Below, piece by piece: positions 2,556-26,984 of a stretch of 31,973 nucleotides of DNA (its first letter is position 1; each line of letters opens with the position of its first letter). Position numbers and translations under genes: made by a program. The notes beneath the pieces were generated by a model. That model was not told the DNA's origin. It did no database searches and worked only from the letters and a program-made list of their open reading frames with translations. Origin of the DNA: a virus; IMG/VR virus record IMGVR_UViG_3300039106_000562, positions 1-31,973 of that record, one strand, 5' to 3'.

Positions 2556-4598
2556 ATGAGCACGTTTGGAATATTAAACCAAATCGTAAATTATTCTCAA
2601 TCTAGTTGGCCATATGGTGACTTACCTACGGTAACAGCAGGCACCAAAGTTGAAACTACAAAAACAATTAATAGTCAAAATGGTAATAGTTGGAACTTAT
2701 CCACAAGAACTGTAACATTAAGTGATACTAACAAACATAGCAATTATCTAACTTTTCCTTTTTCTATAACAGAATTTTTAAAAACAAGTCCTAATGGATT
2801 ATCTGCATCACAATGCTATGGACTTGTTAGAGAAATATATTATAGATTAAATGCAAGTTTCACAAGACCTGGAGGAGTTACTGTAAATCAATATTGGGAA
2901 ATTGGACCATCTATATGGGATGCTGAAATAACTGAACCTAGAGTGAGTCAAGCAGAATCACCAATATATTTTACACCATGGACAAATACCTATGTCAGTG
3001 GCATAACCAATTTACAACCTACCGGATCTAGCAATCAAGGAACTATTAGACAGACTTTTTATAAAACCGGTAATAATGTTATTGCATTTACTAACAATTA
3101 TGAAAGTTTTCCAAACTTTGGTGTTAGCACAACCACAGAAGGTCCACAATATGCAGGATTTAATGATTTTGATTATGTATATATAAAAGTTTGGTTAGAA
3201 TCTTCTAGAACATCAGGATCAGGAGCATATTCTTTTGATGTTACAGTAAATGGGGAAGTTTATCAAAATATACCATCTTCTGCAACTACACTTTTTACAT
3301 TGGGTTGGGTTGGTAAAAATTATAATATTGATGGATTAAATGGAGATACTTTGAATCCATTAACAAATTCTTTTTCAATAACTGGTATTGTAACAAATTA
3401 TAAAAATGCTTCTTGTAATATACAAACAGATTTTTCTTTATCTGAAAATAGTGTATCTGTTATTACAGGAGTAGAAAAAACATTAGAAAACAGTTTTTCT
3501 TTATCAGCCGAGGCTAAAATAAATCGTTTTGCTACCATATCACTGAGCACACAGGCAGATTTTTCAGCCACTACATTCAATTTTCGATTTGCTGATCCAT
3601 TGTCTTTACAATCGGATTATTCTTTGTCTTCTGCAGGAGGTATAATTAGAAATCTATCTTCTGGGTTAATTCTATCCACTGATACTGATTTTACACAAAC
3701 AGCTGGATTGATCTATGACATTTCTGTAGATTACACTTGGGATGATTTTGCTATCGATGGCAAATTTACAGATAATCTATTGGCTGGAGGAATACAATAC
3801 ACTTGGGATGGCGTGGATTATTATAACTGGGGAACGTGGCCTAATGATAATTGGGAACAAACAGATATTAGTTGGGATGAATGGCCCAGCGATACTTGGA
3901 ATGGATCAGAAAGAATTGTCACAGAATTCAATACGCAGAATACTGGTAATGCCAAACGAGGAGGTATTGGTAATCTATTATCAACCACTGCTTTATCGGA
4001 GAATGCAGCCAAATTAAAAACAGGAGCATCCACGTTAATTTCAGAATTCTTATGTGATGGTAGTCCTTCCGGTAAAATGGGCGGTTCCAGCACCATGGTA
4101 TCAGACTTTATTGTAAATTCTTTTGCCAACTATATTATTAACAATGCACAGAACATCGATGGTGCTTTCAATGCCACTCTGTTGGCCAATTACATTGCCA
4201 AATTTTTATGGAGTGCAAGGAGCGATTTCAATCTAGACATTACACCTACGTTTAAACCCGGTGGTGTTACCAACGCACAATGTATTGCTGTGGTAGATGC
4301 ACTGGCGAATTACAAGATCAATAATCCTCAAAACATAGAAAGTGCATTTGATCCCGAATTCACAGCAAGATTGTTTTTTACCACCGATCCTTACCAAATA
4401 TATCGAGTATTACAAGAAACACGACAGATATTTGTGGATGCGGAATCTCGTGGTATAGAAATACCCGAAGAGATTAGATTAAATAGCATACCGGCAGAAA
4501 ACAGAGACTGGTTAGTGCCGCAAGAAACAAGGAATATGAAGTTAAGGATACCACCTATGGTAGATAGAACTACAACACCTAAAGTGAGAAGAGAATAA
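2556..4598 (+). CDS. Large structural protein with Trp-rich and repeated segments
   Basis: This encodes 680 aa preceded by an AAGGAG site. Three zones can be seen. Residues of about 1-280 are Ser/Thr/Asn/Tyr-rich beta-like sequence. Residues of about 280-390 hold imperfect repeats around a D/E-F/Y-SLS or LSTQADFS core. Residues of about 390-450 are strikingly Trp-rich (YTWDDF, YNWGTWPNDNWEQ, DEWPSDTW). Further on, two copies of ANYxINNxQNIxxAF occur about 60 residues apart, and the tail carries ETRQIF, IPAENRDWLVPQETR and ends in basic residues. The first part of the DNA is more A+T-rich than the last, suggesting mosaic origin. I know no function for it. Its place before the adaptor and terminase genes suggests a fibre, baseplate or decoration protein. 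Confidence 0.5.
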   Translation: MSTFGILNQIVNYSQSSWPYGDLPTVTAGTKVETTKTINSQNGNSWNLSTRTVTLSDTNKHSNYLTFPFSITEFLKTSPNGLSASQCYGLVREIYYRLNASFTRPGGVTVNQYWEIGPSIWDAEITEPRVSQAESPIYFTPWTNTYVSGITNLQPTGSSNQGTIRQTFYKTGNNVIAFTNNYESFPNFGVSTTTEGPQYAGFNDFDYVYIKVWLESSRTSGSGAYSFDVTVNGEVYQNIPSSATTLFTLGWVGKNYNIDGLNGDTLNPLTNSFSITGIVTNYKNASCNIQTDFSLSENSVSVITGVEKTLENSFSLSAEAKINRFATISLSTQADFSATTFNFRFADPLSLQSDYSLSSAGGIIRNLSSGLILSTDTDFTQTAGLIYDISVDYTWDDFAIDGKFTDNLLAGGIQYTWDGVDYYNWGTWPNDNWEQTDISWDEWPSDTWNGSERIVTEFNTQNTGNAKRGGIGNLLSTTALSENAAKLKTGASTLISEFLCDGSPSGKMGGSSTMVSDFIVNSFANYIINNAQNIDGAFNATLLANYIAKFLWSARSDFNLDITPTFKPGGVTNAQCIAVVDALANYKINNPQNIESAFDPEFTARLFFTTDPYQIYRVLQETRQIFVDAESRGIEIPEEIRLNSIPAENRDWLVPQETRNMKLRIPPMVDRTTTPKVRRE

Positions 4599-17732: not shown

Positions 17733-18190
17733 TGAAAACATTTAGATTTTTAGATAAAAATGATATACAACCTATGTTGGATCTTGCTTATAAATTTGTC
17801 TATGAGCGAGGATTAGCTGGCACTGATTTTGATAAAACCACATATAATTTTACAGTAAAGAATTGGTTCGTAGATGCGGCCATACATCCACTGGGCACTT
17901 TTATCAATGATGAATTGATTGGTTTTGCCATGTTGGTGAATGATCGAGTGTTCTATAATAATCGACATCGAGTATCTGTGGATCTTGTTTATGTTTTGCC
18001 TGAATATAGATCAGCACAATATTATCAAGAATTATTAGATTGTATTTTTGTTATGTGTTCACAAATGGGAGTTGAGGTAGTGAGAACATCTGCTATCAAT
18101 TATGTGTTGGATCATGATGAACAACAGGGTATAATGTATAGAAATGGTTTTAAACAAACAGATGCAATTTGGGAGAGAGATGCAGGTTAG
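17732..18190 (+). CDS. GNAT-family acetyltransferase-like protein (first of a tandem pair)
   Basis: This encodes 152 aa from the ATG at 17732, whose A is the last base of the preceding stop. An in-frame ATG at 17717 would add five residues. The fold reads as GNAT: FRFLDKNDIQPMLDLAYKF helix, GTFINDELIGFAMLVNDRVF hairpin, then SVDLVYVLPEYRSAQYYQEL as the strand-turn-helix that normally holds the Q/R-x-x-G-x-G/A acetyl-CoA loop. Here the loop is YRSAQYY, lacking Gly, so cofactor binding is doubtful. MGVEVVRTSAINY and YRNGFKQTDAIWERD close the fold. It lies inside the tail-tip operon, where a tail-assembly peptidase or a K/I-like gene is usual. Target unknown. It could be a virion component. Confidence 0.7.
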   Translation: MKTFRFLDKNDIQPMLDLAYKFVYERGLAGTDFDKTTYNFTVKNWFVDAAIHPLGTFINDELIGFAMLVNDRVFYNNRHRVSVDLVYVLPEYRSAQYYQELLDCIFVMCSQMGVEVVRTSAINYVLDHDEQQGIMYRNGFKQTDAIWERDAG

Positions 18191-18635
18191 ACGATTGGTT
18201 CGAGAAGATCTGCCAGCACTACTGGAGATGAATCAAAAACAAATAGAAGAGAGTAGATTTCCACATTTAAAAGTCAATGTGACGAAAATGCGTAATTGGT
18301 ATCTTAATTTTATAAACAATCCTCGCAGTGCAGTATTTGTATTAATAGATGATGACAATCAATTGGCTGGTGCGGCCGCAGTAGGTTCAGATCAATTCTT
18401 TTGGAATTATCATACCTACGTGATGGATTATTTCTTTTATCTTTATCCAGAATATAGACGAGGATTAAATGCAAAATTATTATATGATGCAATCTATCAT
18501 TGGGCTGTGGAAATTAAGGCCATTGAGATACAATTGAGTTATGCTTATGGAGATAATCCAGAACGATTGAATCGTTTTTATAGTTTTATGGGATATGAAA
18601 AAATAGGTGAGCACTATCTTAGGGAGGTGATATAA
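18180..18635 (+). CDS. GNAT-family acetyltransferase-like protein (second of a tandem pair)
   Basis: This encodes 151 aa from the ATG at 18180, overlapping the first GNAT by 11 bases. The upstream in-frame ATG at 18144 lies inside the other gene. It starts with the standard GNAT opening MQVRRLVREDLPALLEMNQ, then AVFVLIDDDNQLAGAAAVGSDQF, MDYFFYLYPEYRRGLNAKLL and IQLSYAYGDNPERLNRFYSFMGYEKIG. The motif A loop PEYRRGLNAKLL keeps Arg and Gly, so acetyl-CoA binding is more plausible than in its partner. Only short pieces are shared with the first copy, so if they arose by duplication they have diverged far. It overlaps the J-like gene start by one base. Confidence 0.75.
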   Translation: MQVRRLVREDLPALLEMNQKQIEESRFPHLKVNVTKMRNWYLNFINNPRSAVFVLIDDDNQLAGAAAVGSDQFFWNYHTYVMDYFFYLYPEYRRGLNAKLLYDAIYHWAVEIKAIEIQLSYAYGDNPERLNRFYSFMGYEKIGEHYLREVI

Positions 18636-20497
18636 TGGGTTGGGTCAAAAAACACGTGGTTAAACCAATAACAAACTTTTTTACTGGTGTCATTAGAGGT
18701 ATAACCAGTGTATTCACAGGCAGTTTTGGATTGGATTTTGATGCTCCAGATTACAGTGCCAATTCAGCTGAAAGTATTCAAGGTGTGTTGGTCAATAAAG
18801 ATTCTGCCATTGCAGATATACCTGTGGTTTATGGCACAAGACCAGTGGGAGGTATTCGAGTATTTGTATCCACAGGATCGGGCAGTAATGAATATCTATA
18901 TGTGGCCTATGTGTTGAGTGAAGGACAGGTAAATGGTTATACAAAATTATTAATTGATGACAACGTGGTCACTGTGGGAGATTATTCACACGGTGTAAGA
19001 TCATTTGCCACATCAGGACAATATGCCAGTGAATCTAGATTGGAAGTGCAATTCTTTGATGGCAGAGATGATCAGATATCATCTACTCTGTTGCAAGAAG
19101 CACCGGGCTGGACCACAGATCACAAGTTGAGTGGATTGGCCTACATCGCTTGTAAATTTCGTTGGAAGAAAATTGAAAGCAATGATGATGCCAACAACAA
19201 TCCATATGGTGGTGGTGTGCCAAGAATTGTGGTCACCGTGCAGGGTAAAAAGATATTCAATGCTACCACACTGGGATCCACAGGATCTCCACATGACACT
19301 GCTTATGCCTCGGAAACTGCGGTGTTCAGCAACAATCCTGTGAATGTATTATTAGATTATATGAGGAACAGTCGTTACGGTAAAGGATTACAAAATGATT
19401 ATTTTGATTGGGATAGTTTTAAAACAGCGGCCACTCTTTGTGATCAAGTTATCAGTTACACAGACAGCACCACAGGCAAAGCATTCACAGCTGATGCAGT
19501 TATAGACACAGGACAGAGTTTAATGGACAACGTAAAATTGATATTGACTTCTTTCCGAGGCATCATGCCTTATCAACAGGGCAAATATGTGTTAAAGATT
19601 GAGCATGGTGGTGATGACACAGATATCACTGCTACACCTTCAGATCCGGCTGTGGTATTCACTGCTACCGATGATACCATGGTAGGAGGTATTTCTATCA
19701 CAGGAGATTCCAAGCAGACTCGTTGTAATCGAGCTCGTATAACATACGTGGATTCATTCAGTGATTATCAACCCAACGAGGTAATATGGCCCGAAGAAGG
19801 ATCTGCGGATGACACAGCTTATCTTGCCGCAGATGGTGTGAGATTGGAAAAAAGCATAACACTAACCATGACAGCCAGTCGCGAACAGGCTCTACAATAT
19901 GCTCAAGTATTTGTAAAAAGAAGTCGTAATGCCAAGCAGATTTCCATTGCTACTAACATGGCAGGATCCAACATGACAGTGGGTGATCTATTTAGAGTGA
20001 TCAATACTCGATTGGGATTAGATGGTATATTTCGTATCACAGATATTCGTATCAATGAAGAGAGTGATATTTTAGTGGGTGGCTTTGAACATCAACCTTC
20101 GGCCTATGCTGTGAATGCCAAAGATGCAGATATTACTCGTCCCACATTAAGTTTACCCAATCCAGAATTGGTGGTGGCTCCTACCTCAGTCACAGTGGCC
20201 TCGGGTGCTGCCGAAGATGTGTTTTATGGCACAGGATATGTGGAATCAGATGCCACAATCAAAAGATTAAATGTAACTTGGACTGCTACCACAGATCCTT
20301 TTGTGAGAGATTATGTGATTGAATACAAGAAGAGCACAGATTCTGTTTACACCATTGCTGGATTCACCACAAGAACACAATTCTATGTCACACCGGTTAC
20401 ACTGGGCACCATTTACAACGTGCGAGTGGCCGCTCGTAATGAATTAAACAACAGAAGTGCCTTTGCCAGTGCATCACCACACACGGTAATTGCATAA
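18635..20497 (+). CDS. J-like tail tip / host-specificity protein
   Basis: This encodes 620 aa. The N-terminus GWVKKHVVKPITNFFTGVI is a hydrophobic helix followed by a long beta-rich body: IADIPVVYGTRPVGGIRVFVSTGS, YVAYVLSEGQVNGYTKLLID, FRWKK, GVPRIVVTVQGKK, LLDYMRNSRYGKGL, SLMDNVKLILTSFRGIMPY and QTRCNRARITYVDSFSDYQPNEV. These are signatures of J-like tip attachment proteins (the 'pviYG.r..gG.....' and 'L.dym.n.rYG.gl' blocks). A C-terminal fibronectin III-type domain (about 527-617: LNVTWTATTDPFVRDYVIEY and YNVRVAARNE) ends it. It forms the tail tip that first meets the receptor. It is shorter than lambda J (1132 aa). Confidence 0.85.
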   Translation: MGWVKKHVVKPITNFFTGVIRGITSVFTGSFGLDFDAPDYSANSAESIQGVLVNKDSAIADIPVVYGTRPVGGIRVFVSTGSGSNEYLYVAYVLSEGQVNGYTKLLIDDNVVTVGDYSHGVRSFATSGQYASESRLEVQFFDGRDDQISSTLLQEAPGWTTDHKLSGLAYIACKFRWKKIESNDDANNNPYGGGVPRIVVTVQGKKIFNATTLGSTGSPHDTAYASETAVFSNNPVNVLLDYMRNSRYGKGLQNDYFDWDSFKTAATLCDQVISYTDSTTGKAFTADAVIDTGQSLMDNVKLILTSFRGIMPYQQGKYVLKIEHGGDDTDITATPSDPAVVFTATDDTMVGGISITGDSKQTRCNRARITYVDSFSDYQPNEVIWPEEGSADDTAYLAADGVRLEKSITLTMTASREQALQYAQVFVKRSRNAKQISIATNMAGSNMTVGDLFRVINTRLGLDGIFRITDIRINEESDILVGGFEHQPSAYAVNAKDADITRPTLSLPNPELVVAPTSVTVASGAAEDVFYGTGYVESDATIKRLNVTWTATTDPFVRDYVIEYKKSTDSVYTIAGFTTRTQFYVTPVTLGTIYNVRVAARNELNNRSAFASASPHTVIA

Positions 20498-20817
20498 TGA
20501 ATCCTCGAAAATTTTATAGTATCTTAGAGGGCTTGGGAGAATTCCATTGTGTCAACGATCTACGTAGAATTAGATTCAAGAATAAAAAGAAATTAACCAA
20601 GAGCGAAAAGCACAGCCTAGGTGCCACTTTGGGTCATTATGGTGCTTGTTTAAATGGTAGTCATCATCACTGTGACTTTGAGTTAAAAAAGGGCATCGAG
20701 AAAGTGGTAATCTATTATTGGAAAACCGTAGAACGAGATGGCGAGCGGTTTAGAGTGCGAGGCAATCAGCCCATGAAGAACTTTGGTCGCGGAAGACCAC
20801 CAGCAAAACAATCCTAA
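20497..20817 (+). CDS. Basic hypothetical protein, last gene of the late operon
   Basis: This encodes 106 aa, start overlapping the J-like stop by one base. It is strongly basic (KNKKKLTKSEKHS) and has a His/Cys-containing stretch (GACLNGSHHHCDFELKKG), a strand pair IEKVVIYYWKTVERDGERFRVRG and a tail GRGRPPAKQS that resembles an AT-hook core (GRP-like flanked by basics). No known family came to mind. As it is the last gene before a terminator-like stem, it could be a regulator of late genes or a host-interaction factor. Confidence 0.6.
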   Translation: MNPRKFYSILEGLGEFHCVNDLRRIRFKNKKKLTKSEKHSLGATLGHYGACLNGSHHHCDFELKKGIEKVVIYYWKTVERDGERFRVRGNQPMKNFGRGRPPAKQS

Positions 20818-20823
20818 GATCGC

Positions 20824-20872
20824 GAGCGAGCACGGAGAACTTCGCAATGACACGAAGTGGGAATGCTCGCTC
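20824..20872 (+). terminator. Long two-tier stem-loop at the end of the late operon
   Basis: GAGCGAGCA (20824-20832) pairs with TGCTCGCTC (20864-20872). Inside, ACTTCG (20839-20844) pairs with CGAAGT (20853-20858) around an 8-base loop. It starts 6 bases after the last late stop. The 3' flank (ACAGTTATTTAAATG) has few T, so it may need help to terminate or may protect the mRNA 3' end. The stem is the strongest in the convergent gap. Confidence 0.6.
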
Positions 20873-20901
20873 ACAGTTATTTAAATGAAATTTTGGTAAA
20901 G

Positions 20902-20957
20902 GGTAGCAGGCTTAAAGGATCATCATATGGCTATAACAGACTAGAAAACCTGCTACC
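20902..20957. other. Second stem-loop in the convergent intergenic gap
   Basis: GGTAGCAGG (20902-20910) and CCTGCTACC (20949-20957) pair perfectly over 9 bp with a 38-base loop. It lies between the late operon end (20817) and the stop of the minus-strand gene (21004). It may be a terminator or a small structured RNA. No ORF of use lies inside. Confidence 0.5.
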
Positions 20958-21003
20958 ACTAATATTTATCTCTGTATCTATTTTATTGTAAAAAAAGTGA
21001 GTG

Positions 21004-21429
21004 TTATTTCCAACGGCTATTCACAGCATCTTGCAGTTCTGTCCAACAGGATTCTGCCACTGCTTGTGCGTAATCTTCATAGTGTCCTGCATAATGCCCT
21101 GCACCTTTGGAATCTGTGTAGAATCCTTCTCTGTTGCGTGTCCACCATCGTCTATCTTTATAAGAATGCACATCTCCGTAATCCACAGCACGTTTGATTG
21201 GAATGTAAATTTTGCGATCTTCTAGATAAACGTATTCTAATTCTTTTAGAGAAACAGTGGCACCTCGAAATTGTGCTCCATCCCAGTGATCCAACCATTC
21301 TGAATAGTTACGAGGATCTGTGTCACTCCACCACACAGCACAATGATATCGTAATGATCTCTCTCCTTTTAACACAGTGTCGTGCCGAGTAAGATACACA
21401 TCCGGAGAATCTATAGTATAATATGGCAT
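21004..21429 (-). CDS. Hypothetical protein, minus-strand isolated gene (141 aa)
   Basis: This encodes 141 aa from the ATG at 21429. It is rich in Trp, Tyr, Asp and Arg: SLRYHCAVWWSDTDPRNYSEWLDHWD, LEYVYLEDRKIYIPIKRAVDYGDVHSYKDRRWWTRNREGFY and GHYAGHYEDYAQAVAESCWTELQ. No signal peptide or membrane segment. I do not recognise a family. A promoter with a TATAAT box sits 8 bases upstream of the ATG, so the mRNA is nearly leaderless. As a single gene on the opposite strand with its own promoter it looks like a moron-type accessory gene, and may act in the host early. Confidence 0.75.
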   Translation of the reverse strand: MPYYTIDSPDVYLTRHDTVLKGERSLRYHCAVWWSDTDPRNYSEWLDHWDGAQFRGATVSLKELEYVYLEDRKIYIPIKRAVDYGDVHSYKDRRWWTRNREGFYTDSKGAGHYAGHYEDYAQAVAESCWTELQDAVNSRWK

Positions 21430-21437
21430 ATGATTAA

Positions 21438-21466
21438 ATTATAACAATACCACCGCAAAGAAGCAA
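21438..21466 (-). promoter_or_regulatory. Extended -10 promoter of the 141-aa gene
   Basis: On the minus strand: TTGCTT (21466-21461), a 17-base spacer, TATAAT (21443-21438) preceded by TGT, giving an extended TGnTATAAT. The ATG lies 8 bases after the box, so the transcript would start about 2 bases before it. No Shine-Dalgarno is possible in so short a leader. Confidence 0.65.
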
Positions 21467-21478
21467 CCAGAATCGTTT

Positions 21479-21507
21479 TTGATCAGAAATAGCCCAAATA
21501 ATAAAAT
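21479..21507 (+). promoter_or_regulatory. Possible promoter for the structured-RNA region
   Basis: TTGATC (21479-21484), 17 bases, then TAAAAT (21502-21507). It faces away from the minus-strand gene's promoter and would start a transcript at about 21514 into the gene-free stretch rich in stem-loops. The -35 keeps TTGA and the -10 keeps five of six positions. There is no extended TG. Moderate match only. Confidence 0.4.
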
Positions 21508-21622
21508 AATAGAAAACTCCGCATTAATAAGAAATCAGTATCCATGGATGTATGAAATTTAATATTATCCATGGTGAGTATTTCTTATTATTATCCATCA
21601 TGTGTGTTTCTTATTAACAACC

Positions 21623-21689
21623 ATCTTTGCGATACCACTGCGATGGTGTGAGTGGTATTAAAGAATCTTTGCGATACCACTGCGATGGT
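21623..21689 (+). repeat. Two 25-base direct repeats, 42 bases apart
   Basis: The 25-mer ATCTTTGCGATACCACTGCG plus ATGGT occurs at 21623-21647 and again, exactly, at 21665-21689. The second copy is in ATACCACTGCGATGGTAT, a 6-bp inverted repeat with a 6-base loop. They lie at the start of the structured region, where TTAATAAGAAA (21524-21534) and its complement TTTCTTATTAA (21607-21617) also form a long-range pair. Confidence 0.85.
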
Positions 21690-22189
21690 ATGTGTAAAAA
21701 AGAGTGGCATTGTATATTAGATATCATCTCCTCATTATCAGTTTGGCCAAGAGAACTTTTAGCAAGTTCTCAGTGAGATTCACAACATCAATCTATTATG
21801 GTTAAGGGTTTGCATATCTAACCAACCTGTTAAGGGAGACCACTTCCGTCTTTTTACACAGCAGGTGAATTGCCGAACTTGAAGTTATAGTGTAAAAAGT
21901 ATGATGCACAAAAGTTTCCAAAGTGCATCAACATTACTGCTCATTTGTTTATACAGTCCTTGCCTAACTGTGTCGCTCTACAACCATTGCTGATCAATCT
22001 GAGGGTGATCTAAACTCTTGGTAAAGGTTGTCCAAAGGTATTGCCTAAAAGAGAAATTTATTGTGCCTGTTCTAGCCTAATCACAAATATATATGACTTG
22101 ACCCAAAAAGAGCAACCTTTTTTGAGTCCGACATTAAATATTCATGTGCGGGACTTCAAACTGGCATAGTTTAATACACCCCGTATATC

Positions 22190-22243
22190 GGCTCCATCGT
22201 AACGTTCTCCCGCAAGTGGAACTTTATAAAGAACGATGGAGCC
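22190..22243 (+). other. 11-bp perfect stem ending the non-coding region
   Basis: GGCTCCATCGT (22190-22200) pairs with ACGATGGAGCC (22233-22243). Inside, GTTC/GAAC pairs may extend or compete. Its right arm ends 10 bases before the ATG at 22254. It might be a 3' boundary of the RNA, a terminator without U tract, or a control element for translation of the next operon. Eleven acceptor pairs rule out a tRNA. Confidence 0.65.
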
Positions 22244-22253
22244 ACTCGAACTT

Positions 22254-22397
22254 ATGGACCCATTGTATAGAATATTATTAGAACAGTTGCTGAAGGGCAT
22301 TCAAGAGCGTAAAATTACCTATGGCACCGATCCTGTGATGATGGCCATACTAAAGGTTGCAGAAGACAGCATAGAACAGAGATTACAGAATGGATAA
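22254..22397 (+). CDS. Small hypothetical protein (47 aa)
   Basis: The ATG at 22254 opens a 47-codon frame: MDPLYRILLEQLLKGIQERK at the start and EDSIEQRLQNG at the end. It is mostly amphipathic helix. The Shine-Dalgarno candidate (GGAG at 22238) is 12 bases away and lies in the preceding stem, so opening of the stem may control translation. It is the first gene of a co-directional run and overlaps the next candidate start. No family recognised. Confidence 0.6.
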   Translation: MDPLYRILLEQLLKGIQERKITYGTDPVMMAILKVAEDSIEQRLQNG

Positions 22398-22560
22398 GAT
22401 CAGCACCACTCATAACTGGGATCGAGTGATACAATTAAGAGAACGAGAATTCTACAGAGATTACAACAGGAAATATGGGCAAGATAATAGATCTAAATCA
22501 ATATCGAAACCACAGACGCCAACAACAACGACAGTTGGCAAAGTCAGCAGAACGAGCTAG
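22390..22560 (+). CDS. Possible small protein overlapping its neighbours (56 aa)
   Basis: The ATG at 22390 overlaps the 47-aa gene's stop (ATGGATAA) and opens a frame of 56 codons, MDKISTTHNWDRVIQLRERE then FYRDYNRKYGQDNRS. It bridges the gap to the 88-aa gene and then overlaps that gene by 86 bases in another frame, ending in low-complexity TPTTTT. The first 30 residues look protein-like and otherwise nothing fills the gap. The overlap makes it uncertain whether the whole frame is used. Confidence 0.4.
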   Translation: MDKISTTHNWDRVIQLREREFYRDYNRKYGQDNRSKSISKPQTPTTTTVGKVSRTS

Positions 22561-26049: not shown

Positions 26050-26228
26050 CAAACACAGTGAATTACACGAGTATTTGAGCAGGATTGAACCCGTGTAGAG
26101 AGCGGTTTAAACGGTGTATAAGACCTTTACAACGGTGGAGATAAGTTTACAGGTATAAAGGCTTGCACTCGGTAATACACCCCTTGTGTCACTCTACTTC
26201 AAAACCACAAAATATATACCCATTTCCC

Positions 26229-26331
26229 GCCGCAAGCCACCGCTAATCCACTCTACCACCACCATTCACCCACCAATCTGAGCCAGGATAGAGCACCCTA
26301 GGGGCCGCAGGCCACCGCTAAGTCATTGTTC
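26229..26331 (+). repeat. Direct repeats of GCCGCARGCCACCGCTAA
   Basis: The 18-mer GCCGCAAGCCACCGCTAA at 26229-26246 recurs with one change (A to G) at 26314-26331, 85 bases on. The core CCACCGC appears a third time at 26353-26359 inside the CCGCGG hairpin. Such spaced repeats are what an initiator or regulator would bind. Confidence 0.75.
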
Positions 26332-26469
26332 TAGAACACTTTTCCACCAATTCCACCGCGGATACAACTTGTAATTGTTCCCGCGGCCTCAGTGATGGCT
26401 ATAGGGTGGCCACACCGTGTGAATGGTAACATAGAGGTTGACACAGTGTTCAGAGTCGGGAGCCGGGGG

Positions 26470-26499
26470 TGTAGGCCTACGTAGGCCTATAGGCCTACA
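26470..26499. repeat. Three tandem TAGGCCTA palindromes (iteron-like)
   Basis: TAGGCCTA occurs at 26472-26479, 26482-26489 and 26490-26497. The outer copies extend to a 10-bp perfect inverted pair, TGTAGGCCTA (26470-26479) with TAGGCCTACA (26490-26499). Repeats of a symmetric 8-mer on one face of the helix suggest a dimeric DNA-binding protein site or an origin iteron. Confidence 0.8.
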
Positions 26500-26846
26500 A
26501 CCTACAGTTGTATAAAGGAACAGAGCGGATCTTATCCTACTCTTCCATGTGGCTGACTATTCCTATCTGGATCTTTGTGCACCATATGAACCATTAGGGA
26601 TGGTGGGGGTGGTGGTGGAGGTTGACTCAGGATGGTGAGAGAAAGATTCACCATGGTGGAGGTGGGTGGTGAAAAGGTTTTTACTTTGGTAAAGGGTGCC
26701 CCCGTCCTTTTGGTGGCTATGGTTTTGCATAGTGTTTATAATTTTTTCTATAGAATTGGGGTAATATAAATATTGAGTATAACCAACCTCCCCACTGCTC
26801 CAATTTTTCGTCAAGCAAAACCAGACACCTTAAATATTCCGAGCAC

Positions 26847-26866
26847 CCAGCACTCCCTGCTGGAGT
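26847..26866. other. Mutually exclusive hairpins
   Basis: CCAGCA (26847-26852) pairs with TGCTGG (26858-26863), loop 5. But ACTCC (26852-26856) also pairs with GGAGT (26862-26866), loop 5. Both cannot form together. This is the pattern of a switch, but they lie upstream of the promoter at 26951, so they could also act as a DNA cruciform or a leftover terminator. Confidence 0.4.
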
Positions 26867-26950
26867 TCTAGCCTCTGGCCCGGAGGGCTCTCAGGGCATC
26901 CAATCGCCTGACTCAAAAATTTTCTCCTTAAAAAACCAGAGTGTCGGAGA

Positions 26951-26978
26951 TTGACACAGTGCAGGATCGTGCTATAAT
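26951..26978 (+). promoter_or_regulatory. Near-consensus sigma70 promoter abutting the start codon
   Basis: TTGACA (26951-26956), 16 bases, TATAAT (26973-26978), with TGC before the -10 (extended). Six bases separate the box from the ATG at 26985, so transcription should start at or next to the A of that ATG, giving a leaderless mRNA. It is the best promoter in the genome. The 11-mer TTGACACAGTG that holds this -35 also occurs at 26438-26448 without a -10. Confidence 0.85.
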
Positions 26979-26984
26979 TGTTAT

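Follow-up and report, generated by a model that had tools for sequence, protein, structure and literature searches.

Organization of the locus beyond the tail operon

The window, i.e., the whole stretch of DNA analysed here, is a viral record of 31,973 bases with siphovirus-like genes for terminase, portal, major head protein, tape measure and tail fibre J, the last of these at 18635-20497, and a hairpin-rich region (21479-22250) lies directly beyond the end of the tail operon. No tRNA was detected in the 32-kb window with ARAGORN. Given that the closest isolates by J protein are pelagiphages (33-35% identity), a SAR11-type host is likely for this phage, and phages of its group probably infect SAR11-like bacteria. 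Siblings were obtained from IMG/VR by flanking-protein identity (L003, 92%; L004, 83%; L005, 75%). The features of the locus, in window coordinates, are:

20823-20985, minus strand: element A, a structured RNA of two hairpins, flanked by the end of the tail operon and the leftward gene
21004-21429, minus strand: small leftward gene (ORF of 141 aa) downstream of the slot, with the same ORF in L003
21480-21717, no strand assigned: hairpin array with two 31-nt repeats (at 21623 and 21665), 93% identical in L003; the 3' part of the leftward unit if transcribed
21718-22073, minus strand: body of the exchangeable cargo slot (slot counted from 22083), gene-free in the window and without alignment to L003
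21751-21771, 21850-21899, 21902-21930 and 21980-22030, minus strand: slot-body stems, all inside 21718-22073
22043-22083, minus strand: leader with three AGGC boxes starting at 22078, 22068 and 22046 (spacing 10 and 22)
22088-22115, minus strand: promoter-like element TTGCTC-N16-TATATA, conserved in L003, L004, L005 and, by sequence, L100
22133-22142, plus strand: TAAATAT box upstream of element B, invariant in seven aligned relatives
22146-22186, plus strand: element B hairpin 1, GTGCGGG/CCCGTAT with inner AAACT/AGTTT, which covaries
22190-22243, plus strand: element B hairpin 2, whose 11-bp stem carries the conserved loop GTTCTCYYGCAAGT..CTTTATAAAG and which immediately precedes a small rightward ORF

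An earlier note had proposed 21479-22250 as a candidate for a single large ornate RNA packed with stem-loops. Every stem that it named was found in the sequence, and the packing is real: the region holds eight perfect inverted repeats with arms of at least 8, compared with 0.73 expected from dinucleotide shuffles (loops up to 50), a count reached in 0 of 100 shuffles, and three with arms of at least 10 where 0.03 were expected. The 831-nt region also exceeded shuffles in stability, on the plus strand (z -4.65) as well as on the minus strand (z -3.87). This stability is uneven along the region, the excess being located in the array 21480-21717 (z about -3; -3.2 plus and -2.9 minus) and in 22130-22250 (z about -3), so that the whole-region value of -4.65 is carried by the two ends. 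The core, 21718-22074 (357 bases), is home to most of the listed hairpins and gave z -1.0 on the plus strand and +0.1 on the minus strand; it contains three perfect stems of at least 8, with 0.27 expected. As the note had also stated, no credible gene is present: there is no ORF of at least 60 aa between 21430 and 22235, and none of the small ORFs (20-53 aa) inside the region is convincing. The TTGATC-N17-TAAAAT motif at 21479, described in the note as promoter-like and pointing into the region, does exist but is one of 12 such matches where 5.3 were expected. Within the array, the 31-nt direct repeats (21623-21695) are 94% alike at a spacing of 42, which is in frame with a 39-aa leftward ORF (21591-21710) common to the window and L003. 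A hidden protein from this ORF was judged unlikely; the ORF is kept in L003 but lacks an evident ribosome-binding site.

Alignment to L003 led us to drop the single ornate RNA, since this sibling replaces the middle of the region and keeps both ends. The hairpin-rich region is instead a composite of element B, a leftward promoter-like element, an exchangeable slot and the hairpin array. The Rfam 15 families, GOLLD and ROOL included, were reached neither in the window nor in the relatives searched; up to E=5, 21380-22480 gave only chance snoRNA/sRNA matches. Membership in GOLLD or ROOL, which the note had considered, found no covariance-model match at gathering score in the window, and in the absence of any Rfam 15 match the elements are not assigned to either. 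Thus, structured RNA new to Rfam is present at this locus, but not as one ornate plus-strand molecule.

The covariation that the note had called for in homologues was found inside the region in element B, which contains its last hairpin (the 11-bp final stem), and in no other part. Element B is kept in L003, L004, L005 and L100, and in the latter three it occurs without the rest of the region. Its stems differ around the constant loop (GGCTCCATCGT/ACGATGGAGCC, GGACCTGTGCG/CGCACAGGTCC and GGGCTTGTGTG/CACACAGGCCC), and hairpin 1 reads GTGTTCG/CGAACAC in L100 and CGTTGGG/CCCAACG in L005. With both hairpins counted, 89 of 90 cells were paired and 13 of 18 pairs were changed on both sides (0/1000 shuffles), a tally that leans towards structure since the arms were located in each sequence by eye; a plain MAFFT alignment, in which the stems of L005 and L100 are misplaced, gave 3 pairs (97/500 shuffles). 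The wobbles point to the plus strand, with six G-U to none. Element B is very probably a real RNA structure and, as it precedes the small rightward ORF at 22236-22397, probably the 5' leader of the rightward genes; the TAAATAT box is a possible rightward promoter element. This 53-aa ORF (plus strand) follows directly after element B and is nearly identical in L003.

Outside the hairpin-rich region, element A was highly stable on the minus strand (z -7.4; in a second run -7.6, versus -3.8 on the plus strand), 8 of its 22 pairs showed changes on both sides (0/500 shuffles), and its wobbles favoured the minus strand by 4 to 0. It had no match in Rfam and none by BLAST among phage records. The product of the adjoining 141-aa leftward gene had no Pfam or PHROG match.

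An exchangeable slot, probably read leftward

Comparison with L003 defined the borders of the slot sharply. Identity of the two sequences is 91.6% over 18001-21717 and 90.3% from 22074 onward, and between these limits 356 window bases are replaced in L003 by 537 unrelated bases. The L003 slot has a shorter leftward ORF followed by a gene-free stretch. In L004 and L005, leftward ORFs of about 233 and 224 aa, which belong to no known family, start right after the conserved promoter-like element. The L003 swap together with these ORFs indicates that the slot is read leftward, opposite to the promoter-like motif of the earlier note, and by sequence comparison we regard the middle of the hairpin region as a slot exchanged between close relatives. 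The window's slot body (21718-22073) had no homologue among phage records or the fetched loci. L006 and the matches L099 and L102 were set aside as chance matches or unrelated phages. The isolates HTVC202P, HTVC112P, HTVC026P and DSL-LC06 lack the slot, their genes continuing in one direction there. The gene-free part of the sibling's slot (L003 3800-4060) contains a long hairpin, GACGGCTAT../..ATAGCCGTC. This slot was also tried as a member of RNA family M, described below, and gave no match.

The promoter-like element at 22088-22115 has a -35 that matches the consensus poorly (3/6), and the CAAAAAG/CTTTTTTG hairpin listed in the earlier note overlaps it.

RNA families M and P and the AGGC leader

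The slots of two other relatives, L026 and L036, contain gene-free sequence, and this was the source of family M. The family was assembled from a 17-base conserved string, followed by a second pattern and a profile, and comprises nine distinct sequences (L100, L101 (= L026), L036, L103, L104, L105, L120, L106 and L123); a third pattern, in the 3' core, retrieved nine contigs, all already in the set, and no bacterial genome contig. With a length of about 300 nt, the RNA begins with a leader and is located like the window's slot. Its core has a P1 stem with loop AAAGAAC, a pseudoknot around AGGACATAAA..ATAAAC and a 3' ACGTTCTG. The P1 stem varies (GGUGU/GCACC, GGGUU/GACCC, GGACU/GGUCC), while in all nine sequences AGAAC of the loop has its complement in an invariant GUUCU close to the 3' end. 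The pseudoknot encloses AGGACAUAAA and AUAAAC, with stems GAGAC/GUCUC, GACAC/GUGUC and GGGAU/AUCCC. An alignment made without fitting to the structure gave changes on both sides for 15 of 43 pairs (0/500 shuffles; no more than 6 with the partners slid). These numbers are support rather than probabilities, as the structure was derived from the same sequences, which are few and in part related. A covariance model of the core recovered all members (E 3e-28 to 8e-42) and found no other convincing match in 31 loci. Tail fibre J genes adjoin family M in its contigs, and the RNA lies upstream of different genes, in both orientations relative to the tail operon. TTGACA..TATAAT stands upstream of it in L104 and L105, at the position matching the window's promoter-like element.

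Family P, a conserved plus-strand RNA about 300-550 nt long, is found behind the same tail gene in L027, L031, L035, L045 and L049, of which the following loci, all downstream of tail genes, were delimited:

L027, 3640-4210
L031, 9049-9640
L045, 6180-6540
L049, 6820-7400

Here 16 of 47 local pairs were changed on both sides (0/500 shuffles), and AGGC boxes are also present. Family P was additionally found in two contigs of metagenome-assembled genomes, L136 (about 7060-6700, minus) and L137 (about 6573-6250, minus), which are myophage DNA binned with Pelagibacter and Marinimicrobia; given that both carry T4-like portal and baseplate genes, the family crosses phage morphotypes. Neither M nor P had a BLAST match among phage records, and neither was found in the corresponding stretches of the four isolates named above or in the myophage HTVC008M. 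The earlier note's suggestion of a new class is supported by M and P, which covary strongly at the homologous place outside the window; this support does not extend to the window's own slot body. With elements A and B, the two families make four structured RNA elements absent from Rfam 15, each backed by compensatory changes (0/500 or 0/1000 shuffles) in small sequence sets.

The window is connected to these families by its leader. The minus strand of 22103-22040 matches the family M leader (nhmmer, E=3.6e-7), with 80% identity to L026 over 71 bases, and across the leaders the AGGC boxes are spaced at 10-12 and 21-24 bases. Among the 12 permutations of its letters, the triple arrangement is the commonest, with 13 distinct places in 1.1 Mb, one of them in the window; seven of the 13 places are starts of M, P or the window unit, and the other six lie elsewhere, mostly in GC-rich sequence. 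One further locus found with the leader pattern, L131, was a false match in coding sequence (a tail-fibre-like ORF). In L100 a family M body occurs together with the promoter-like element and element B of the window. This combination, taken with the leader match, suggests that the window slot most likely makes a leftward RNA; as proposed for AGGC-leader RNAs, a gene-free unit resembling a transcript has the triple box at its 5' end, and the promoter plus AGGC-box leader of family M are both there. The body is a different matter. The model of the M 3' core (R1, filters off) gave at best 7.1 bits in the window, at AT-rich ends only, the whole-RNA M profile matched the window in the leader only, and the P profile, with core GAAATGCGGC..CGACAGGTGAATC, lists no window match (nhmmer). 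Membership of the window body in M or P is ruled out by the M model and the P profile, and judging from these comparisons the window unit is a member of neither family but carries their leader. In related phages the slot alternates between a small protein gene and a member of new non-coding RNA families with a common start signal.

Interpretation of the window slot

Our preferred reading, to which we give a probability of roughly 0.55, is that the window slot holds a leftward, accessory phage non-coding RNA as its cargo. The slot would be a small accessory-gene site with the tail operon on one side and the following rightward operon on the other, at which the promoter-like element (22115-22088) may fire leftward. 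In some relatives this element would read a protein gene; in the window it would produce a non-coding RNA with an AGGC-box leader, from about 22083 through 21718 and perhaps to about 21480, before the 141-aa gene. Such an RNA may fold, bind host or phage factors and act in trans in the infected cell, a role that seems the most likely one because the slot cargo is exchangeable and family M lies beside various genes in both orientations. The phased AGGC boxes would then be a likely common docking or control site of the RNA set, with element B as a separate plus-strand RNA leader of the rightward genes. Set against the accessory RNA are a slot body for which no homologue was found, a fold no more stable than shuffles and the weak -35. 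More tentatively, one promoter-proximal AGGC leader may have been fused to exchangeable, unrelated RNA bodies (M, P and the window type) that are swapped at one slot like accessory protein genes; if true, this modular leader-plus-body set would be the RNA counterpart of anti-defence or moron islands.

The same leftward transcript could be read differently, with 22083-21430 serving the 141-aa gene as a long, structured cis-regulatory 5' leader instead of forming a free RNA. That gene, likewise leftward, begins at 21429 and is retained in L003, L026 and L036 too have small leftward ORFs past the M RNA, and a long leader would look alike; yet an unrelated body stands between promoter-like element and gene in L003, which would be odd for the cis-regulator of a conserved gene, and family M precedes different genes in both orientations relative to the tail operon, leaving this a minor possibility. 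A core derived from a decayed cargo gene, or made of neutral filler from slot recombination, with incidental hairpins, would accord with the swap between siblings, the MFE z near 0 and the missing homologue. We consider this unlikely in view of the core's perfect stems (8-10 bp), the intact leader common to RNA families and the lack of any trace of a reading frame.

Action of the inverted repeats at the DNA level, as operators, recombination or exchange sites or cruciforms, is improbable. The box spacings do approximate one and two helical turns, so that the boxes could be an operator common to the units, and the exchange boundaries with L003 are sharp; the one-sided wobbles of B and A are what is expected for RNA, however, and the stems of M and P covary. 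The single ornate plus-strand RNA over 21479-22250, already disfavoured, is by now very improbable: its promoter-like motif at 21479 and the whole-region stability speak for it, but a 91% sibling retains both ends with a different middle, the conserved promoter-like element and leader within the region face the other way, L004, L005 and L100 keep element B as an independent unit, and Rfam gave no match.

GOLLD and ROOL form homo-oligomeric RNA cages, and phage-encoded structured RNAs of unknown function such as these are an open puzzle. If the RNAs described here are expressed, they offer a natural swap series in which one phage backbone carries an RNA, a protein or another RNA, and which would make the function of such RNAs directly testable. 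GOLLD, often longer than 800 nt with a conserved 3' half and often near tRNA islands, is likewise a phage-encoded structured RNA of unknown role, also in lake and marine samples (PMC12286853); our units are 100-550 nt, have no covariance match to it and lie in a window free of tRNAs. ROOL is phage-encoded and pseudoknotted, has no known protein partner and is also often near tRNA islands (PMC12286853), whereas family M, again without a covariance match, is about 300 nt with its own pseudoknot and an AGGC leader. The manA and wcaG motifs are structured RNA elements in cyanophages and so resemble ours as structured RNA in marine phages beside accessory genes (PMC2864571), but their Rfam models gave no match, M and P lie beside tail genes and look like free RNAs, and element B alone has the placement of a cis-acting leader. 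Phage moron or accessory slots share the exchangeable unit, its own promoter and the position between structural gene modules; the difference is that here the cargo alternates between small proteins and structured RNA.

Two further stretches were observed. At 26050-26984 the window again lacks a convincing rightward ORF for more than 900 bases. Behind a leftward ORF in the slot of L033, a distant relative, lies a gene-free, hairpin-rich stretch (3636-3981) that may be a further RNA type.
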